Translations under genes and position numbers: made by a program
Shown: piece by piece, positions 13,685-26,127 of the stretch
Layout: each line of letters begins with the position of its first letter
How positions within the stretch are numbered: the stretch's first letter is position 1
Notes under the pieces: generated by a model
Told to the model about the DNA's origin: nothing
The model's input: only the letters and a program-made list of their open reading frames with translations
The model's database searches: none
Assembly (NCBI RefSeq): GCF_016278385.1
Contig: NZ_JADQBY010000023.1
Span: 1 to 32,894 of the forward strand
Length of the DNA: 32,894 bases
Origin: Methanolobus sp.
Lineage (GTDB): Archaea; Halobacteriota; Methanosarcinia; Methanosarcinales; Methanosarcinaceae
Direction of reading: 5' to 3'

Positions 13685-14155
13685 ATGCATAAGATTTGTA
13701 CTGATATAACAATTGAAGCTCCTATTAATGTGGTCTGGGAAATCCTGACAAATTTTGATGAATATGAAACGTGGAATCCTTTTATAACGAGAATGAAAGG
13801 AAAGTTTGAACTTGGTTCAAAACTCGATGTTTTTATGCAGCCTCCGGGAATGAAGGGTACGAATTTCACTCCTGTAATTACAAAAATAGAACCTGTAAAT
13901 GAGTTCAGGTGGATAGGTAATTTGTGGGTCAGAGGCATCTTTGACGGAGAGCATGTGTACAGGCTTGAGGAACTGGGAAATGACCGGTCAAGGCTGATAC
14001 AGTGCGAAAGGTTCAGAGGTATTATGGCTCCGCTTATACTGCACATTATTGGTGAGAAGACAAGAAAAGGCTTTGAAAAAATGAACAACAGCCTTAAGAG
14101 AGAATGTGAAAAAATACAGGAACAAGGGATTACACAAAATGCGCCCTTGGTCTGA
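13685..14155 (+). CDS. SRPBCC (START/polyketide-cyclase-like) protein
   Basis: The 156-residue protein has the SRPBCC fold pattern: an N-terminal strand with IEAPINVVWEILTNFDEYETWNPF, a middle LGSKLDVFMQPPG, GEHVYRLEEL, and a long C-terminal helix (GEKTRKGFEKMNNSLKRECEK). Such proteins bind hydrophobic ligands in a cavity; the ligand is unknown. A TTG at 13664 is in frame but overlaps the ribosome site GGAGGT (13669-13674), so the ATG at 13685 is preferred. Its last 26 bases overlap the 3' end of the citrate synthase gene on the other strand. Confidence 0.85.
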   Translation: MHKICTDITIEAPINVVWEILTNFDEYETWNPFITRMKGKFELGSKLDVFMQPPGMKGTNFTPVITKIEPVNEFRWIGNLWVRGIFDGEHVYRLEELGNDRSRLIQCERFRGIMAPLILHIIGEKTRKGFEKMNNSLKRECEKIQEQGITQNAPLV

Positions 14156-15227
14156 TAACTTTGTTATCATCATATTGTTCCATGCAGTGGGCTATCCATC
14201 CTGAAACCCTTCCCATTGCAAATATAGACGTTGCGAGTTCAGCAGGAATATCAAGATACTTGTACACCACGGCAGAATAGAAATCAACATTAGGATATAT
14301 TGGTTTGCCCTTAACTTCGACAAATTCATGGAACAGTATGTGTTCAAGTTCTTCAGCTAGATCAAACCAGTAGCTGTTGCCGTTTTCAATTGACAGTCTT
14401 CTGGCAACATCCTTGTAAATTCTTGCTCTGGGATCCAATGTCTTGTAAACACGATGGCCAAAGCCCATTATCTTCTCTTTTCTTTCAAGTTTTCCAAGAA
14501 CATAGCTCTGGACATTCTCTATGCTGCTAACTTCATCCAGCATATCCATTACTCCTTTTCTGGCACCACCATGCAAAGGTCCTTTTAGGGTACAAAGACC
14601 ACATATGACTGCAGAATAGATATCTGAAAGGGTTGATGCTGCAATCCTCAATGCAAAAGTTGAAGGATTCAGTTCATGTTCTGCGCTCAGTATAAGATCC
14701 TTCTCCATTGCTTCAGCTTCAAGTTCTGTTGGGATCCTGCCTGTGAGCATGTAAAGGAAGTTAGCACCATGGGATAGCTCCTCATTGGGTTCAATGGGTT
14801 TCTGATTAAAACTTGCACGATGTAAAGCTGCAACAATAGTCGGAAATTTTGCAACAAGTTTTATAGACTTGTTTTTATTGGCATCCGGTGAATGATAGTT
14901 ATTTTCAAGATCAAAATGCGCTGTGCAGGAAATAGCAGTTCTTAACCCGTCAAGAGCGTCAAATCCAAAATCAAATTCCTTGAGGACTTCAATTTGTTTG
15001 CCATTGATATTACGATTATTTTTAATTTCCCGGGAAAATTCGGATAATTCGGTTTCATCGGGGAGCTTTCCATTAATAAGCAGATAAGATACTGCATCAT
15101 AAGGAAGATCTACAAGCTCTTCTATCTTGATTCCCCTGTACATCAGGATTCCCTGGATACCGTCAATGAAGGATATTTTTGTATCCAAAGCTACTACGCC
15201 TTCAAGGCCTTTTTTCATCTCTTCCAT
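14130..15227 (-). CDS. gltA: Citrate synthase
   Basis: The enzyme condenses oxaloacetate and acetyl-CoA to citrate, feeding 2-oxoglutarate and glutamate synthesis in methanogens with an oxidative partial citric acid cycle. The catalytic triad is visible: His219 in LKGPLHGGARKG, His258 in MGFGHRVYK and Asp315 in PNVDFYS, spaced as in known enzymes. SAEHELNPSTFALR is the usual substrate-binding segment. At 365 residues it has the short form of archaeal and Gram-positive enzymes. It lies downstream of aconitase on the same strand with a 163-base gap holding its own TATA box and an inverted repeat. The 3' end overlaps the convergent SRPBCC gene by 26 bases, so antisense effects are possible. Confidence 0.96.
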   Translation of the reverse strand: MEEMKKGLEGVVALDTKISFIDGIQGILMYRGIKIEELVDLPYDAVSYLLINGKLPDETELSEFSREIKNNRNINGKQIEVLKEFDFGFDALDGLRTAISCTAHFDLENNYHSPDANKNKSIKLVAKFPTIVAALHRASFNQKPIEPNEELSHGANFLYMLTGRIPTELEAEAMEKDLILSAEHELNPSTFALRIAASTLSDIYSAVICGLCTLKGPLHGGARKGVMDMLDEVSSIENVQSYVLGKLERKEKIMGFGHRVYKTLDPRARIYKDVARRLSIENGNSYWFDLAEELEHILFHEFVEVKGKPIYPNVDFYSAVVYKYLDIPAELATSIFAMGRVSGWIAHCMEQYDDNKVIRPRAHFV

Positions 15228-15246
15228 TTAAAATCCCCCAATGGTT

Positions 15247-15305
15247 AAAGTGTACGTTTTGCCAAAATAGGTCCAATTACACTTTTTAATTGTCAATATA
15301 TAAAC
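15247..15305 (-). promoter_or_regulatory. Citrate synthase promoter with inverted repeat
   Basis: On the minus strand GTTTATATATTGAC (15305-15292) is a strong TATA box, so transcription would start near 15270. AAAGTGTA (15247-15254) and TACACTTT (15278-15285) form a perfect 8-base inverted repeat with 23 bases between. It spans the predicted transcription start and leader, as an operator would. Confidence 0.5.
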
Positions 15306-15390
15306 TTTGCTGGATTTTCGCCGCCATAATATAATTATATTCTGAGGAAATATGAACATAACATTCAAACAGAAAAAGAGAATGAACAGT

Positions 15391-18174
15391 TCATTCTCCG
15401 TTTATACTATCTCTAAGGAATTTGTGAAGGATGCCACCATTCATGTAATACTCTATTTCAATATCAGAGTTCAGGCGTACAAGGACATTAAAAGTTTTTT
15501 CGATTCCCTTATCTGATCTTGCAATAACTGTGAGTTCACCGAACGGTTTGAGTTCATCAATGCCTTTGATAGTGAATGTTTCTTTACCATCAAGTCCAAG
15601 GACTTCTGCAGATTCTCCTTCCCTGAACTGCAGCGGAAGTACTCCCATACCAACAAGGTTACTGCGGTGTATTCTCTCATACGATTCCGCAATAACTGCC
15701 TTGATACCAAGCAACTGGGTACCTTTTGCAGCCCAGTCACGTGAACTTCCAGTACCATATTCCTTACCGGCAATAACTACAAGTGGAGTACCTTCTTCTA
15801 CGTACTTCATAGCAGCATCATAGATTGGCAGTTCCTGGTTTTCGGGCTGGTGTATGGTCCATGAACCTTCTTTGCTTCCAACAAGCCTGTTCTTAAGGCG
15901 CACATTTCCAAATGTACCTCTCATCATAACTTCATGGTTACCACGCCTGGAACCGTATGAATTAAAGTTCTTTTCATCTACTCCCTTTGAGATCAGATAC
16001 TGACCTGCAGGATAGCTTGAGGGAATTGAGCCTGCCGGAGATATGTGGTCTGTAGTTATACTGTCAGCAACCATCACAAGAGCACGTGCATCTTTGATGT
16101 CGCTCAGTTTGTCCACATTAAGTGGGAAATCCTTGAAAAAAGGTGGTTCTTGGATATATGTTGAATTCTGGTCCCAGCCATAGAGTAATCCTTTCGGTGC
16201 ATCCAGGCTTCTCCAGAGATCAGTACCCTTGTAGACATTGGAATACTGCTCAATGAACATTTCAGGAGTTACAGCTTTGTGAATGCATTCATCAAGTTCT
16301 TCCTTGCCAGGCCATATATCTTTAAGGAAGACCGGCTGACCGTTAGGGTCACAGGCTATAGGCTCTTTCATAAGATCGATATCAACTGTGCCTGCAAGTG
16401 CGTAGGCAACAACAAGCATTGGTGATGCTAAGTAGTTTGCTTTTACCTGGGAGTTTATCCTGCCCTCAAAGTTCCTGTTTCCACTAAGAACTGCTGCAAC
16501 TGTGAGATCCTTTTCTTCTATCACACTTGAGACCGCTTCCCGTAGAGGGCCACTGTTTCCTATGCATGTAAGACAACCATAGCCTACAAGATGGAACCCT
16601 AGTGCATCGAGATAAGGCATAAGGTTGGCTGTCTTGAGGTAATCAGTAACTACACGGGAACCAGGTGCAAGACTTGTCTTTACGAAAGGTTTTACCTTAA
16701 GTCCCTTTTCGACAGCTTTCTTTGCAACCAATCCGGCCCCGATCATAAGAGATGGACTGGATGTGTTAGTACAGGATGTGATAGATGCAATAACAACTGA
16801 TCCGTGTGTAACAGCAACTACATCGTCTGCACACTTTATTTTAGTAATACCTGTTTGATGTGGATGTGTGATCTCTGAAACACTGTATCCGCCTTCCCCA
16901 AGCCAGCGGCTGTAGTCAGGATCATCACCGTTAGCATTTTTACCACTCTTTGCAGTGAAAACATCTTTTATCGTCTGGTGGAAAGCTCTTGACATTTCCT
17001 GAACAGGTATGCGGTCCTGTGGTCTTTTTGGTCCTGCAAGACTTGGTTCTACCGTGCTGATGTCAAGTTCAAGTGTTGATGTAAAGTCAGGCTCAACTGC
17101 TCCTTCTTCAAGGAAAAGGCTCTGCTCTTTACAGTACTGCCTTACAAGGTTTACCTGTTCTTCGCCTCTGCCTGTCATGAGCATGTAGTCCAGAGTAATC
17201 TCATCCACCGGGCAGAATCCCATTGTAGCACCGTATTCAGGAGCCATATTTGCAAGTACTGCTCTGTCAGTCAGTTCCAATGTTTTGTATCCTGGTCCGT
17301 AGAATTCCACAAATTTGCCAACAACTCCATGTTGTCTGAGCATTTCCACAACTGTAAGCACAAGGTCTGTGGACGTGATACCATCCCTAAGTTCTCCTGT
17401 GAGCTTAAAGCCTACAACTTCAGGAATTGGCATATAGTATGGTTGACCGAGCATAACAGCTTCAGCTTCAATTCCACCGACACCCCAACCAAGGACACCA
17501 AGTCCGTTTATCATGGTGGTATGGGAATCAGTACCTACAAGTGTATCAGGATAAGCGACAAGTTCGCCACCTTTTTCTCTCAGGTGGACAACTGATGCAA
17601 GGTACTCAAGGTTTACCTGGTGGATTATACCACTTGCAGGTGGCACTACTCTTAGATTATCAAAGGCATTCTGGGCCCAGTGTAGTAATTCATACCTTTC
17701 CTTGTTGCGGTGGAACTCATATTTCTCATTGCAGTTGCGGGCATAGGAAGTTCCATAGTAATCTACCTGTATTGAGTGGTCAATTACAAGGTCTGCAGGA
17801 ATAACAGGATTGATCGCTGAAGGGTCACCACCCAGTCTTTTCATGGCTGACCTTATGGCAGCAAGGTCCACTACTGCAGGAACGCCTGTAAAGTCCTGCA
17901 TGAGAACTCTTGAAGGAATGAATGGTATGTCTATTGCAGGAACTCCTTTAGGACTCCAGCCTGCAAGGTTTTTCACATCATCTTCGGTAATTACTTTACC
18001 ATCTACATTCCTGAGTATCGCTTCAAGCAAAACACGGATGGAGTAAGGTAATCTGGAAATGCTGGTAATTCCCAGTTCTTCCAGCTTATGTAAGCTATAG
18101 AAGTTTACCTTTTTATCGCCGATATTGATGGTCTGTTTGGATCCGAAAGGATCTTTAAAATCATCACTTGTCAT
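15391..18174 (-). CDS. acnA: Aconitate hydratase A (AcnA/IRP1 type)
   Basis: The enzyme isomerises citrate to isocitrate. At 927 residues it is a full-length AcnA/IRP1-type protein, not the smaller archaeal aconitase. The three [4Fe-4S] ligands are Cys468 (ITSCTNTS) and Cys534 and Cys537 (GCLTCIGNSG), with the same spacing as Escherichia coli AcnA. DSHTTMINGLGVLGWGVGGI and the swivel-domain GKEYGTGSSRDWAAKG motif are intact. The bacterial-type form suggests ancient transfer from bacteria (inference). An AGGTGA site precedes the ATG. Citrate synthase follows on the same strand, so the two consecutive reactions are linked. Confidence 0.97.
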   Translation of the reverse strand: MTSDDFKDPFGSKQTINIGDKKVNFYSLHKLEELGITSISRLPYSIRVLLEAILRNVDGKVITEDDVKNLAGWSPKGVPAIDIPFIPSRVLMQDFTGVPAVVDLAAIRSAMKRLGGDPSAINPVIPADLVIDHSIQVDYYGTSYARNCNEKYEFHRNKERYELLHWAQNAFDNLRVVPPASGIIHQVNLEYLASVVHLREKGGELVAYPDTLVGTDSHTTMINGLGVLGWGVGGIEAEAVMLGQPYYMPIPEVVGFKLTGELRDGITSTDLVLTVVEMLRQHGVVGKFVEFYGPGYKTLELTDRAVLANMAPEYGATMGFCPVDEITLDYMLMTGRGEEQVNLVRQYCKEQSLFLEEGAVEPDFTSTLELDISTVEPSLAGPKRPQDRIPVQEMSRAFHQTIKDVFTAKSGKNANGDDPDYSRWLGEGGYSVSEITHPHQTGITKIKCADDVVAVTHGSVVIASITSCTNTSSPSLMIGAGLVAKKAVEKGLKVKPFVKTSLAPGSRVVTDYLKTANLMPYLDALGFHLVGYGCLTCIGNSGPLREAVSSVIEEKDLTVAAVLSGNRNFEGRINSQVKANYLASPMLVVAYALAGTVDIDLMKEPIACDPNGQPVFLKDIWPGKEELDECIHKAVTPEMFIEQYSNVYKGTDLWRSLDAPKGLLYGWDQNSTYIQEPPFFKDFPLNVDKLSDIKDARALVMVADSITTDHISPAGSIPSSYPAGQYLISKGVDEKNFNSYGSRRGNHEVMMRGTFGNVRLKNRLVGSKEGSWTIHQPENQELPIYDAAMKYVEEGTPLVVIAGKEYGTGSSRDWAAKGTQLLGIKAVIAESYERIHRSNLVGMGVLPLQFREGESAEVLGLDGKETFTIKGIDELKPFGELTVIARSDKGIEKTFNVLVRLNSDIEIEYYMNGGILHKFLRDSINGE

Positions 18175-18769: not shown

Positions 18770-18866
18770 TAATCGATTTTTCAAAATATTTGCAGGCATA
18801 ACTGGATGTTTTGTCGGAAATAAAAAAGCACAAATAATCCTTAAAATGATTGAGCGTATGACATGA
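18770..18866 (+). pseudogene. Relic copy of the 19706 small gene
   Basis: The last 28 codons read FFKIFAGITGCFVGNKKAQI then ILKMIERM. The intact gene at 19706 ends FTKYLQAGLNLFVGNEKAEL then ITKKIEQM. The DNA is also alike (AAATATTTGCAGGC and TTTTGTCGGAAAT are shared exactly). The upstream part does not match, so this is a 5'-truncated, same-orientation duplicate next to the transposase relic. Confidence 0.7.
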
Positions 18867-18975
18867 ATGGTGTTAAACTGATAGTCGTACCTCTACTGAT
18901 TCTCTAATTGCGTAACTGCTGAATTAAATTATGATTTTAATTATGTTGATAGTGTTAACATCGGTAGCATGCAAA

Positions 18976-18992
18976 CATTAATATATAAGTGG
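18976..18992 (+). promoter_or_regulatory. Promoter of the three-gene unknown operon
   Basis: ACATTAATATATAAGTGGC contains a strong TATA box about 50 bases before the ATG at 19038. A TGTTAACA palindrome (18953-18960) lies just upstream and may bind a regulator. Confidence 0.5.
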
Positions 18993-19037
18993 CAGTATAT
19001 TTTTTGCTGTTATAAATTAGTAAGATAGAGGGATAAA

Positions 19038-19376
19038 ATGGTAATAGAAATACTAAGTTATAAGGAAAGTTTTCTAAACCCGCTGTTAAAAATGGTTACT
19101 CCAATATTGTTTGTCATTGGGGTATATTATTTTTATCAAGCCCGACAGGCATATGGCGGAGAGATACAGAAGATTGCAAATTTGTTGTTTGCAGGTGGAA
19201 TAGCAGGTTTTATTGCTATGGCCTTCAGGTATGGTGGCGACAAAATCGTCTCATGGAAATGGGGCGAGAGTGTATTCATCCTTATCTTTGCAATTATCAG
19301 CGTATACGTGGCGTATCTTGTAAGGAATAGGTTAATTGTAGCTGCCAGAGCACTTGGGATAATGGAGGATGAATAA
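19038..19376 (+). CDS. Three-helix membrane protein, unknown, paralog of the next gene
   Basis: This 112-residue protein has transmembrane helices near residues 17-33, 45-64 and 75-96. The first ends with the motif YYFYQARQAYGG, and FRYGG follows the second. The C terminus is cytoplasmic and charged (ARALGIMEDE). I do not recognise a family. The next gene encodes a protein of the same layout and motif, so the two probably form a heteromer. A GAGGG ribosome site (19028-19032) sets the start. The stop abuts the next ATG directly. Confidence 0.85.
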   Translation: MVIEILSYKESFLNPLLKMVTPILFVIGVYYFYQARQAYGGEIQKIANLLFAGGIAGFIAMAFRYGGDKIVSWKWGESVFILIFAIISVYVAYLVRNRLIVAARALGIMEDE

Positions 19377-19703
19377 ATGTCTGCTTTATTTGATTATTCT
19401 ACAAGTCCACTCAACCCGGGGCTAAAAATACTTACAACCTTGCTGTTCTTCGTAGTCGCGATCATTTACTATGATGCAAGGACAAAGTATGGTGGAGCAG
19501 TGCGAAATTTTATTAGCCTTTTATTAGTTTTTGCATTGTTATTTGCCATGTCGTCCCTGTTCCGCTACTTCGGACACGGAACTGATTTCGGATTCACAAA
19601 TGATTACTCTCTTAAATGGTTGCAGAGTTTATTTTTAATGCTGTCTTCATTGTTCTATGTACTTGCGGGAAGAAAATTACTTGGATTGTTTGGGGGTAAA
19701 TGA
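19377..19703 (+). CDS. Three-helix membrane protein, unknown, paralog of the previous gene
   Basis: This 108-residue protein has helices near 16-32, 43-61 and 84-103. Its first helix ends IIYYDARTKYGG, matching YYFYQARQAYGG of the upstream protein; FRYFGHG matches its FRYGG. The two arose by tandem duplication and diverged. The ribosome site GGAGGATGA lies within the 3' end of the previous gene. Downstream coupling is tight: the stop overlaps the possible ATG at 19700. Function unknown; a small membrane complex is likely (inference). Confidence 0.85.
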   Translation: MSALFDYSTSPLNPGLKILTTLLFFVVAIIYYDARTKYGGAVRNFISLLLVFALLFAMSSLFRYFGHGTDFGFTNDYSLKWLQSLFLMLSSLFYVLAGRKLLGLFGGK

Positions 19704-19705
19704 AA

Positions 19706-19933
19706 ATGGCAGGATTATCGGATCAGGTTGTTAGTTTACTGGAACCACACATTGGGAAGACAATGGCACAGGCCTCAGTTAAAACACAATGCAAAAAAAT
19801 AGGAATTACACCCGAACAGCTTTCTTCTGCACACTTAAATGAATTTACAAAATATTTGCAGGCAGGGCTGAATCTTTTTGTCGGAAATGAAAAGGCAGAG
19901 CTAATTACTAAAAAGATCGAGCAGATGAAATAA
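19706..19933 (+). CDS. Small helical cytoplasmic protein of the unknown operon
   Basis: This 75-residue protein has no signal or membrane segment. It looks like two or three helices (LSDQVVSLLEPHIGKTMAQA; LNEFTKYLQAGLNLFVGNEK; AELITKKIEQMK). The N-terminal half resembles small archaeal helical domains in general, but I cannot name a family. An ATG at 19700 overlaps the preceding stop (ATGA), but GGGGGT (19692-19697) is only two bases from it and well spaced from the ATG at 19706, which I prefer. A truncated relic of the same gene lies at 18770-18866. Confidence 0.8.
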   Translation: MAGLSDQVVSLLEPHIGKTMAQASVKTQCKKIGITPEQLSSAHLNEFTKYLQAGLNLFVGNEKAELITKKIEQMK

Positions 19934-20419
19934 ACCGTTTTTGAGGTTTATTTACCTACATTCTTAGAAACGATCAAATCATATCAAATCTAATTTGATT
20001 GTCTCTGATTTTTTTATTTAGGTCACTCACTAATCCATAAGTTCTATACTTAAATTTTGCTCTTTTTAATATCCACAATCAACTTTGACTTTCATACCCA
20101 CGTTTTAGCTAAAATGACATTGAAATGGAACCCATAGGGCAGTATAGTGGTTTATTATGTCTTAATTCAAGAAGCCATTACAAGTCATTCAGAGCAACCA
20201 TCGTATAGGTTTTAGATATAGGTATTCCTTAATTTCCATAGTACTATACCCAGTACTCCATAAAGTATGGTTTAACTCCTTTTAGTACGAGTATATATAT
20301 ATATATATATATATATATTCACAAAAATATGATGCAAAGTAGGGTATGTACCCCCTAATTACTTACATTTTGACAACAAGGTTACCAAATCAGCACACAT
20401 CTTTTTTTGAACCTTGCTT
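19934..20419. other. Gap with TA tract
   Basis: No gene is seen. AAACC-GTTTTTGA-GGTTT just after the operon (about 19932-19949) may be a weak terminator. The rest is AT-rich, with the TA tract at 20292-20319. Confidence 0.4.
20292..20319. repeat. (TA)n dinucleotide tract
   Basis: About 14 TA units in a row form a pure simple-sequence repeat between the unknown operon and a membrane protein gene. It is easily melted and prone to slippage, and may vary between strains. Confidence 0.95.
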
Positions 20420-21019: not shown

Positions 21020-21283
21020 AACAAAATCCATGTGTCTATTGGTGACAATGTTATCGGGATTCCGGAAGAGAAAATCGAATCAGTATTTGATGATTTCTAT
21101 CAGGTGGATGGGTCGCTTACAAGAACATATGGAGGTGCAGGTATTGGTTTATTCATAAGTAAAAAGATAATCATAAACCATGGCGCAGACATCTGGCTGG
21201 AAAGCAAAACGGAAACCGGAACCATAGTTCATGTGATACTTCCTGTCAATTATAGCAAGAAAGCTGCATCTGTAATTAAATGA
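21020..21283 (+). pseudogene. Histidine kinase ATPase-domain relic
   Basis: The piece reads NKIHVSIGDNVIGIPEEKIE then SVFDDFYQVDGSLTRTYGG, AGIGLFISKKI and TGTIVHVILP. These are the G1 (DNxIGI, with Val for the usual Gly), F and G2 boxes and C terminus of a HATPase_c domain. The frame begins abruptly (stop at 20975-20977) and has no HisKA, N box or sensor. A GTG at 21032 could start an 83-residue fragment but no ribosome site supports it. It is the 3' remnant of a larger kinase, clearly different from the one at 1905. Confidence 0.8.
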
Positions 21284-22124: not shown

Positions 22125-22307
22125 ATATCAGTAGATTGATCTCATGATTCTTAAAGGATTCTGACAATTGTATAAAATAGAATATGAAAACAGAACTTCT
22201 AAATTCAGCGGCATATCTTTATTAGATAAAGCGGCTGTCTTTTTATGGGAGTATAATTCAAAATATTCTTATTTTCTTTATGTGTTTCATAGGTCGTGGG
22301 TGATCAT

Positions 22308-23696
22308 GTGGTCAGGTTAGAAAAAGATACTTTAGGAAAAGTAGAGGTAGCTGATGATGTATACTATGGCCCTCAGACTGCAAGAGCAGTAGACAATTTC
22401 AGGGTAAGTGGTGAGAGCTTACCAATGGAGTTCATAAAAGCTCAGGCAGCTATAAAAATAGCATCTGCAAAGGCCAATATTAAAGCTGGCAAACTCGATT
22501 CTCAGATTGGGGACTCAATAATTGAAGCTGCATTTGAGATTAGAAATGGGAAACTGGAAGATCAGTTTGTTGTCGATGCTTTTCAGTCTGGTGCGGGTAC
22601 TTCACAGAACATGAATGCAAATGAAGTAATCGCTAACCGTGCACTTGAGATCTTAGGGTTTGAAAAAGGAAGATACGATATCATCCATCCAAATGACCAC
22701 GTAAACATGTCCCAGTCCTCAAATGATACGACTCATACAGCCATTCACATTTCAGCGGCTGAAATCCTAAAGGCAGATCTTATTCCGGTAATTGATGATT
22801 TTCTGTACACTCTCAACAAGAGATCCATTGAGTTCATGCTGGTTGTCAAACCAGGGCGAACACATCTGCAGGATGCAGTTCCAATCACGCTTGGTCAGGA
22901 ATTCAGCGGCTATGCCAGAATGATAGAAATTGATAGGGAAAGGTTACTACAAGCTCTGGATGGCCTGCTTGAGTTGAATATGGGTGGAACTGCCGTGGGA
23001 ACAAGATTGAATGTCCCTCCCGGTTTTTCAGATATTACTATCAGTGAGATGAGGGATATAACAGGGATTGAATTCAGGATGGTTAAAAATACCTTTGAAG
23101 CAACCCAGGGTGCTGGTGCCATACTTGCCTCTTCTGCCGCACTCAGAGGTCTTGCAGTAAGTCTTACTAAGATAGCAAATGATCTGCGTTTGCTTTCAAG
23201 TGGCCCAAGGGCAGGAATGGGCGAGTTAAACCTTCCGGCAGTGCAGCCAGGGTCATCGATTATGCCCGGAAAGGTCAATCCGGTTATGGCGGAAATGCTC
23301 AATATGGTATGTTTTCAAGTAATCGGTAACGATACTGCTATTATGATGGCGGCACAGGCAGGGCAGCTTGAACTCAATGTATTCACACCACTTCTTGCCC
23401 GCAATCTTCTCCAGTCTATTAAGATACTTGCAGGGGCAATTGATTCTTTCAACAGGAAATGCCTTGCAGGTCTGAGTGTCAACATTCAAAGGTGTGCAGA
23501 GCTTGCCGGTTCGAGTCTCGCATTGGTAACTTCTCTTGTTCCTGTAATCGGTTATGATAAAGCTGCTGAGCTAGCTCACCGGGCGCACAGCGAGACTCTT
23601 TCAATCAAGGATGTCGTTATTGAACAGGGATTGTTTACAAGCAAAGAAATAAAAGACCTTCTGGATCCAATGAAATTAACGGGGGCTAACAGATGA
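22308..23696 (+). CDS. Class II fumarase/aspartase family enzyme (probable fumarase)
   Basis: A family lyase that hydrates fumarate to malate, or deaminates aspartate to fumarate. Family signatures are all present: [55 protein letters not shown] with the catalytic-region His, and [16 protein letters not shown] (GSSxMPxKxN). The GAGTS and HVNMSQS segments resemble aspartases; [13 protein letters not shown] resembles fumarases. The location before fumarate reductase fits either. The start is uncertain: GTG at 22308 has GGTGA (22299-22303) five bases upstream; a GTG at 22296 is also in frame. It overlaps the next gene by four bases (ATGA), so expression is coupled. Confidence 0.9.
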
Positions 23697-25366
23697 TAGA
23701 TCATGATATTATCGTGATTGGTGGTGGACTTGCAGGACTTCGGGCAGCCATTGAAGCTTATCAGTTGGGGGCGGATGTTGCCATAATTTCAAAGGTTTAT
23801 CCCATACGCAGTCATTCAGGTGCTGCCCAAGGAGGTATCAATGCATCACTTGGATTTGATGATAGTTGGGAAGCACATGCATTTGATACTGTAAAAGGCA
23901 GTGATTATCTCGCTGACCAGGATACAGTTGATGTGCTTTGCAAGGAGGCGTCTGAAAGAGTAATTGAAATGGAGAACTGGGGGTGTAATTTCTCAAGGCA
24001 GGAGAATGGAAAAATTGCCCAGCGTCCTTTTGGTGGTGCAGGGTTCCCACGGACATGTTTTGCAGGAGACCGGACAGGGCATAACCTGTTGCATACATTA
24101 TACGAACAGGTTCTAAAATGTAACATCAAAATATACAGCGAATGGCTAGTGACCAAACTGGTTATTGATAAAGGCAGATGTGCAGGATGTATTGCGATGA
24201 ATATGGCTGATTCAAAGCTTGGGGCTTTTCGTTCAAAGGCAATTATTCTTGCAACCGGTGGATATGGAAGAATATACCAGCGTTCCACCAATGCCATGAT
24301 TAACAGGGGTTTTGGTATCAGCCTGGCCTATATGGCTGGTGTTGCGTTGGAAGATATGGAATTTGTTCAATTCCATCCCACAACTCTTCTGGGAACAAAT
24401 ATACTGATTACAGAGGGAGCACGTGGGGAGGGTGGCTACCTTTTCAATAAAGATCATGAGCGCTTCATGAGTAACTACGCAAAGGATTCAATGGAGCTTG
24501 CACCCCGGGATATCGTTGCCAGATCAATTCAAAAAGAAATAGATGAGGGTCGAGGCTTCCCTGGAGGGTATGTTCATGTTGATCTGACTCATCTGGGAAA
24601 GGATGTAATCAATGAACGTCTTCCGGGAATCAGGCAAATATCAATTGATTTTGCAGGCATCGATCCTGTGAAAGAACCTATACCTGTGCAGCCTGGTCAG
24701 CATTATTCTATGGGTGGCGTAAGTTCTGACATTAATGGCAGAACACCAATGCCGGGTCTTTATGCTGTAGGTGAATGTGCCTGTATAAGTGTTCATGGTG
24801 CAAACCGGCTTGGTGGTAATTCACTTCTTGACACTGTTGTTTTCGGAAGAAGAGCAGGGATCGATGCAGTAGATTATATAAAATTGATTCAAAAGGCTGA
24901 TGGAGACAAACTGATTGAAGCTTTCCGACAGGAGGAGGGAAGGCTTCAGGGAATGTTTGGTGGTGAAGGGGGAAACTTTGCTTCTATCAGGGATGAGCTG
25001 CAGCAGATCATGCAGGAACATGTAGGTATATTCAGGAACCGTAAGGGGCTGGAACATGCTCTGGATGAAATAAGGAAACTCAAAAAAAGGGCAGCAAAAC
25101 TAAGGGTTCAGAGCAAGGTCAAGGTTTTTAATTTCGAACTTATAAATGCCCTCGAATTGCAGGGCATGCTTGAACTTGGACATATTATAACTATAGGAGC
25201 ACTTGCAAGGGAAGAAAGCAGAGGTGCGCATTATCGTACGGATTACCTTGAAAGGGATGATGGACACTGGTTGAAACATACACTTGCTTACAAAGATGTG
25301 GAGCCACGTCTTGAATACAAGGAAGTTAATATTGGCCGTTTCACTCCACAAAGGAGGGAATACTGA
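23693..25366 (+). CDS. Fumarate reductase/succinate dehydrogenase flavoprotein subunit
   Basis: This 557-residue FAD subunit interconverts fumarate and succinate. The dinucleotide fold is [27 protein letters not shown] contains His41, where FAD is covalently attached in family members. Other motifs are [42 protein letters not shown], the active-site region [10 protein letters not shown], and [13 protein letters not shown]. All catalytic elements seem intact. In methanogens the equivalent TfrA works in CoM/CoB-dependent fumarate reduction. Here the partner iron-sulfur subunit is a plain SdhB type, so the electron donor is open. It overlaps the gene before it by four bases and the gene after it by one. 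Confidence 0.95.
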
Positions 25367-26127
25367 TGGTACAACTGACAATCAGAAGGCAGGATGGGAA
25401 TACAATATGGTATGAAACTTTTGATGTGGAAGAAAAACCTGGAATGACGGTGCTTGAAGCATTGTTCCAGATACAGGAAAAACAGGATGGAAGTCTTTGT
25501 TTCAGGTATTCCTGCAGGGGCGCCGTATGTGGGAGTTGTGCCATGCTCATAAATAGAAAACCCGTACTTGCGTGTAGAACGCAGTTATCTGCTGTTAAAT
25601 CTGAAGTAATCCTGGAATCTGAAAAAGAGGAGATTCTTCTGAAACACAGCAGTAAGGATGAAAGCAAAGAAGATGTTCTTGTTGAACCGCTTCCAAATTT
25701 AAGAGTTATTAGGGATCTGATAGTTGATATGGACCATTTTTACAGGCTCGTTAATTCTATTGAACCATGGATACATGTGTCTGAAAAGACGGGCTATGAA
25801 GAGAATATAATTGAACCTTCCATGCAGATTCAAATTGAGAAATACACCAACTGTATACTCTGTGCCACATGCCATGGAAACTGTCCGGCGGCAGCAAGGG
25901 ATGATAAGTATCTCGGACCAGCTGCACTTGCAAAAGTATGGCGCTTTTGTCTGGACCCTCGCAGCAGAAGAGAGGATGTTGACAAACTTACTTCCCAGGT
26001 TAACTCTAAAGAGGGTGTTTGGGGATGTGATGTTGTTTACAAATGCGTAGCTGTATGTCCAAAGAAAGTACCGCCTACAACTGCCATTCTCAAGATGAGG
26101 GAGAATACAAAGAGTAAGAGTGATTAA
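25366..26127 (+). CDS. Fumarate reductase/succinate dehydrogenase iron-sulfur subunit (SdhB/FrdB length)
   Basis: A 253-residue iron-sulfur subunit. The [2Fe-2S] motif is FRYSCRGAVCGSCAM with a later Cys in PVLACRTQL. The [4Fe-4S] motif is CILCATCHGNCPA. The third cluster is built from GCDVVYKCVAVCPKKVP. The methanogen thiol:fumarate reductase subunit TfrB is about twice as long and has a C-terminal HdrB-like domain with CCG motifs. That domain is absent here, and no SdhC/SdhD membrane anchor follows, as the next gene is on the other strand. How electrons reach it is therefore unknown. Confidence 0.93.
   Translation: MVQLTIRRQDGNTIWYETFDVEEKPGMTVLEALFQIQEKQDGSLCFRYSCRGAVCGSCAMLINRKPVLACRTQLSAVKSEVILESEKEEILLKHSSKDESKEDVLVEPLPNLRVIRDLIVDMDHFYRLVNSIEPWIHVSEKTGYEENIIEPSMQIQIEKYTNCILCATCHGNCPAAARDDKYLGPAALAKVWRFCLDPRSRREDVDKLTSQVNSKEGVWGCDVVYKCVAVCPKKVPPTTAILKMRENTKSKSD

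Follow-up and report, generated by a model that had tools for sequence, protein, structure and literature searches.

A conserved three-gene module of methanogens that may encode a split membrane sensor and its cytosolic adaptor

Three small genes in a 32,894-nucleotide stretch of Methanolobus sp. DNA (hereafter the window, which means the whole stretch that was analysed) encode two three-helix membrane proteins, A and B, and a small soluble protein, C, and raise the question of what such a trio, whose families went unrecognised in a preliminary description of the locus, may do for the cell.

The three genes and the predicted structure of their products

The genes and the elements associated with them are as follows.

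18770..18874, + strand: decayed, frameshifted copy of the C 3' end, upstream of the operon (75% DNA identity over 106 columns)
19028..19033, + strand: Shine-Dalgarno-like GAGGGA of A, read from the sequence
19038..19376, + strand: gene A, 112 aa, three-TM; putative half of a split membrane sensor
19364-19369, + strand: Shine-Dalgarno-like GGAGGA of B, read from the sequence
19377..19703, + strand: gene B, 108 aa, three-TM; paralogue of A and putative second half of the sensor
19692-19696, + strand: Shine-Dalgarno-like GGGGG of C, read from the sequence
19706..19933, + strand: gene C, 75 aa (77 aa from 19700), four-helix and soluble; relative of partner proteins of HAMP receptors

All three open reading frames are present on the same strand, as had been described, and A and B adjoin with no gap, whereas the reported overlap of the third gene amounts to 4 bp and exists only if C begins at the ATG at 19700, which would give a protein of 77 aa. 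The spacing from GGGGG favours the ATG at 19706, from which C has the 75 residues originally assigned to it and does not overlap B. The ribosome sites were likewise found, with a Shine-Dalgarno-like sequence before each gene. The TATA box that had been taken as a sign of expression did not hold up: the TATA-like element TTAATATA at 18978-18985 carries one mismatch, and the window contains 154 such elements where 130 +/- 12 would be expected, a count at chance level that does not demonstrate expression. It is the orthologues, which keep intact frames at roughly 36-57% identity, that identify A, B and C as real and conserved genes by sequence comparison.

The decayed C copy upstream may be what remains of a second A-B-C copy, and an (AT)n run lies downstream of the operon at 20290-20317. 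The module is flanked on one side by citrate synthase and aconitase genes (14130-18174) and on the other by genes for a class II fumarase-like lyase, a succinate dehydrogenase/fumarate reductase-type flavoprotein and an Fe-S protein (22296-26127); for a methanogen, such a clustering of TCA-type genes seems unusual.

Sequence comparisons identify A and B as ancient paralogues. The A query matches B at E 5e-8 in a single-sequence search, the profiles of the two families match each other with a probability of 99.6 and E 1.1e-23, and when all A and B sequences are placed in one tree, the A proteins (n=18) form one clade apart from B with a support of 0.997, which indicates a single duplication older than the whole known spread of the pair. 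The proposed tandem duplication followed by divergence is thus borne out. Each protein has three hydrophobic helices, in agreement with the earlier description and with the AlphaFold2 model, and FRY-x-G is common to both, also as described. The other proposed shared motif, YY-x(2,3)-AR-x2-YGG, fits A, where YYFYQARQAYGG reads YY-x3-AR-x2-YGG, but not B, where IIYYDARTKYGG reads YY-x1-AR-x2-YGG and the first spacer falls outside the two to three residues allowed.

The families remain as unrecognised as they were at first sight: neither single proteins nor family profiles of A, B and C gave a match above cut-off in Pfam, NCBIfam, PADLOC or PDB sequences, and the A and B profiles matched no PDB chain with E under 0.25. 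No sequence likeness of A or B to any known sensor was found, Pfam detected no HAMP domain in either, and a HAMP profile gave zero matches in the A-B loci at E 1e-4. A literature search, which mostly left subscription journals outside its reach, found no description of the three families.

Because A and B are separated by an in-frame stop, the pair was modelled with AlphaFold2 as a read-through chain, using an alignment of six relatives of the same arrangement plus B-only rows; an alignment containing both A-only and B-only rows was dropped, as MAFFT put A rows on the B half. The resulting model is a confident bundle of six helices (pLDDT 78.7; pTM 0.77), with a shallow alignment and an artificial linker (107-124, pLDDT below 50) that may shape it. 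The folds that match it best are those of GPCR and rhodopsin bundles (lowest Foldseek E 0.02), and the chain with its artificial linker aligns to GPCR bundles with a VIA Z of 15.8 and an rmsd of 3.6 over 197 residues; since helical bundles often reach Z 14 according to the VIA guidance, this likeness is one of general plan only. In both families, loop 1 carries positive charge (+2.0 and +2.6); the N-terminus and loop 2, by contrast, range from neutral to negative and hold 9 of the 15 near-invariant columns of A and 13 of the 18 of B. By the positive-inside rule, these patterns suggest that A and B have their N-terminus outside, their C-terminus inside and a conserved outer face. Judged from the model, an obligate A-B heteromer, as first proposed, is plausible.

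Distribution and probable acquisition of the A-B pair

A and B are neighbours in all 19 distinct A-B loci, although A is apparently frameshifted in one of them (L023), and C is nearly always attached, as it follows B in 15 of the 19. One locus (L028) meets a contig edge just after B. The hosts are mostly Methanomicrobiales, including Methanoregula and Methanospirillum, together with an ANME-2 MAG, a Woesearchaeote MAG, whose A-B contig also bears ribosomal-protein-like and SecY-like genes, a Chloroflexi MAG and a Contendobacter MAG. A gene for a DUF4388-like protein that ends in a helical tail precedes A in the Contendobacter locus. The C-terminal part of the L034 DUF4388-like protein was considered as a C-type domain, and this assignment was not established. 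No A-B pair beyond the two seed MAGs was found in 301 genomes of the phylum of the Chloroflexi MAG or in 249 genomes of that of the Contendobacter MAG, so that these two copies could stem from rare transfers or from errors in binning. Of the 13 loci obtained by scanning GTDB genomes with a profile, one is the G403 locus again.

Among 60 genomes sampled at the level of the order (the window's own, 26 of the same genus, 10 others of the same family and 23 of the same order), A was found only in the window's genome and in G037, and the A-B-C module was absent from the 26 congeners and the 10 other family members searched; across the phylum, A occurs in 7 of 393 sampled genomes. The conserved co-occurrence anticipated for the module therefore stands for the linkage of A with B, but not as a trait of Methanosarcinales, since the pair belongs mainly to Methanomicrobiales. 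In the tree, the A-B pair of the window groups with those of Methanomicrobiales, away from the type found in ANME and G037; given its absence from congeners, the module of the window was probably acquired horizontally. A near-identical short ORF or element flanks A-B in G037 (L007:6716-6946, - strand) and in the ANME-2 MAG (L032:8673-8918), and looks like a repeated element or a shared flank.

Relatives of C, output-less HAMP receptors and signalling neighbours

The model of C is confident and all-helical with four helices (pLDDT 89.7), and its fold has no convincing match in the PDB (best Foldseek E 0.94; VIA Z 6.3). As a Roadblock/LC7 protein C does not qualify, for it has no Pfam match and its all-helical model differs from the alpha/beta Roadblock domain. 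A profile built from three HAMP-type C members and run on 247 genomes of the phylum detected C relatives in 17 of them, the window's own included. In all 18 complete stand-alone C relatives outside A-B loci, which were picked up from the C sequence only (16 in that search, with L002 and L039 in addition), a HAMP protein is encoded immediately upstream on the same strand. HAMP was confirmed by Pfam in the five upstream proteins tested (E 1e-11 to 1e-15), where it lies at the C-terminal end, with weak Cache- or 4HB-type matches in some; as the receptor chain ends just after HAMP, it has no kinase or MCP output. The profile of C from A-B operons matches that of the HAMP partners over its full length (hhalign probability 98; E 2.4e-13; 74 columns), and the C of the window alone matches the HAMP-partner profile at E 6e-8. 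C thus shares with these partners both homology over the full ~75 aa and a position directly after an output-less membrane protein. The other matches of the profile are truncated ones and three fusions to the ends of other proteins, which together with the HAMP cassettes of interest are listed below.

L054:1456-2532, - strand: C-type domain at the C-terminus of a larger protein (profile E 9e-12), with hydrophobic N-terminal helices too
L056:1444-2466, - strand: C-type domain at the C-terminus of a larger protein
L065:1438-2337, - strand: C-type domain at the C-terminus of a larger protein
L085:3843-6145: methanogen cassette of an output-less HAMP protein, a C-type protein, Roadblock/LC7 and PATAN-like + Roadblock
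L086:3658-5385: cassette of HAMP, C-type, Roadblock/LC7 and PATAN-like + Roadblock genes
L087:7341-9061, - strand: cassette of HAMP, C-type, Roadblock/LC7 and PATAN-like + Roadblock genes

No published description of this conserved HAMP/C-type/Roadblock/PATAN-like cassette was found. By their homology, the relatives of C point to transmembrane signalling, and it is from them that such a role for the trio is suggested.

A second small protein, C', of ~55 aa with the pattern FGPASA...CRxK...FLGxxxAKEFD, precedes A in two A-B loci (L032 and G037, contig C23), adjoins an output-less HAMP receptor in G050 (L046, Pfam HAMP E 1.3e-6) and adjoins another small 3-TM protein in G037 (contig C33). Its match to C (hhalign probability 77; E 2e-5) is only suggestive, and C' was not accepted as a member of the C family, of which it may be a short, distant relative. 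Because C and C' each pair both with A-B and with HAMP receptors, A-B is most simply read as substituting for the receptor in a cassette of receptor plus small partner. A small 3-TM protein encoded directly before a C' gene (L045:5282-5584, - strand) is possibly a third input type; its kinship with A or B was not established (6.7 bits, not significant).

The neighbours of the Methanomicrobiales A-B-C loci are signalling genes as well. A histidine kinase gene of the PAS/HATPase type adjoins 12 of the 13 loci, in six upstream on the same strand and in six downstream and convergent, with no clear orthology between the kinases of the two arrangements; in the 13th (G281; L018), a soluble tandem-HAMP MCPsignal protein is encoded ~200 bp upstream of A and divergently. 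In L025, for example, the genes for the kinase, A, B and C lie in an unbroken row. Given that each of three Methanomicrobiales genomes holds 39-66 related kinase copies and that the related loci are not independent, kinase adjacency counts as supporting evidence only. No intact kinase lies beside the module in the window, whose genome has related kinases in trans. An isolated remnant of a histidine kinase ATPase domain at 21032-21283 (~80 residues; HATPase_c E 5e-16), which lacks the kinase body, was rejected as the kinase of the module. Downstream of HAMP-C pairs, REC-GAF-kinase genes were found in L047 and L048, and Roadblock/LC7 and PATAN-like genes in L060/L085 and L061/L086.

A putative split sensor and its alternatives

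We propose, with somewhat better than even confidence, that A and B together make up a 3+3-TM sensor split over two chains, for which C serves as the cytosolic adaptor that feeds kinases in trans. A and B would be parallel three-TM subunits and would combine into a single six-helix membrane sensor that lacks an output domain, and a signal reaching the outer face of this bundle would alter helix packing. C would dock on the cytoplasmic side, completing a physical A-B-C complex, and would pass the state of A-B to a soluble signalling protein supplied in trans, in most cases a PAS-type histidine kinase or, alternatively, an MCP-like protein. The closest parallel is provided by the uncharacterised output-less HAMP receptors of methanogens, in which the order is also a membrane protein and then a ~75-aa helical protein homologous to C, and the C' family likewise serves both membrane types. 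A and B differ from those receptors in lacking any HAMP, Cache or 4HB domain, and two short 3-TM chains stand in for one receptor chain. A bolder form of the proposal, in which A and B are halves of a six-helix ligand receptor with a 7TM plan minus helix 4 that signals via a common adaptor, C or C', which output-less HAMP receptors would use as well, is tentative and on balance unlikely; the bundles of GPCRs and microbial rhodopsins align to the read-through model, with no homology claimed, but have seven TM in one chain rather than 3 + 3 helices in two.

Two parallel 3-TM halves, the topology we infer for A-B, are also the plan of SemiSWEET dimers, SWEET, PnuC and, by structural argument, GPCRs (PMC7162841). 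A and B could accordingly be a SemiSWEET/MPC-like carrier, a heterodimer with a central cavity for small-solute transport and C as regulatory subunit, and such a function would be in keeping with a bundle that has conserved polar and charged residues at one of its ends. We nevertheless regard a carrier as improbable. The A and B profiles have no convincing PDB chain match and no Pfam model over cut-off, no sequence relation to SemiSWEET, SWEET or PnuC is detectable, and the relatives of C accompany receptors, not transporters. These transporters are moreover homodimers or fused chains rather than two paralogues, and they function in transport, whereas the context of A-B is signalling. No SemiSWEET, SWEET or MPC chain is among the fold matches listed for the A-B model, which excludes nothing. 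The idea that A and B are mere membrane anchors or a scaffold for C, with no sensing role, draws on their very small size and short cytoplasmic tails; it appears very improbable, for conservation is concentrated on the predicted outer face, and two conserved paralogues, distinct since before their spread to several phyla, would be needless for anchoring.

C might instead signal to Roadblock proteins rather than kinases, in a Roadblock/LC7 and PATAN-like pathway, possibly with an MglA-type GTPase. The Roadblock/LC7 and PATAN-like genes after HAMP-C cassettes in several genomes agree with this route, as do a weak DUF4388 (PATAN) match in the protein preceding A-B in the Contendobacter MAG and the PATAN genes recorded near MglB/MglA genes (PMC4316618). 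The Streptomyces conservons (CvnA-D) and MglA/MglB are likewise multi-gene membrane signalling cassettes with small proteins of unknown function, and their Roadblock proteins have counterparts after some HAMP-C cassettes; A-B-C, however, contains no GTPase or Roadblock gene, and no GTPase was identified beside the HAMP-C cassettes. Pfam also found no Roadblock/LC7 match in the window's genome, which is rated 100% complete, although five related genomes have one, and this argues against the route in that organism; overall, we hold it to be distinctly improbable. Patchy distribution and probable horizontal acquisition would fit a mobile or defence-type gene set (phage defence, toxin or conjugation pilin-like) as well, yet there was no PADLOC match, no relatives were found in viral contigs or plasmids, and the Pfam matches of that kind, such as TrbC (the TrbC/VirB2-type pilin family) in one of seven B members at E 0.035, were confined to single members and below cut-off; such a role is very improbable.

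To our knowledge, most archaeal sensory systems have been described solely in terms of kinases and receptors whose domains are recognised. The A-B-C module, read as a split sensor with an adaptor, is best seen as a new input variant of modular receptor signalling, and with the HAMP cassettes it makes up a repeated pattern of small unannotated proteins in which an output-less membrane input is joined by a helical partner of 55-75 aa. Were the split 7TM-like reading true, methanogens would have plug-in receptors assembled from an input chain, an adaptor and a kinase, each encoded by its own exchangeable gene. If the small partner acts as an adaptor, it could connect many orphan HAMP receptors of methanogens with their soluble kinases, A-B would be a new input type, and how the many membrane-less kinases of methanogens get outside signals would become directly testable.
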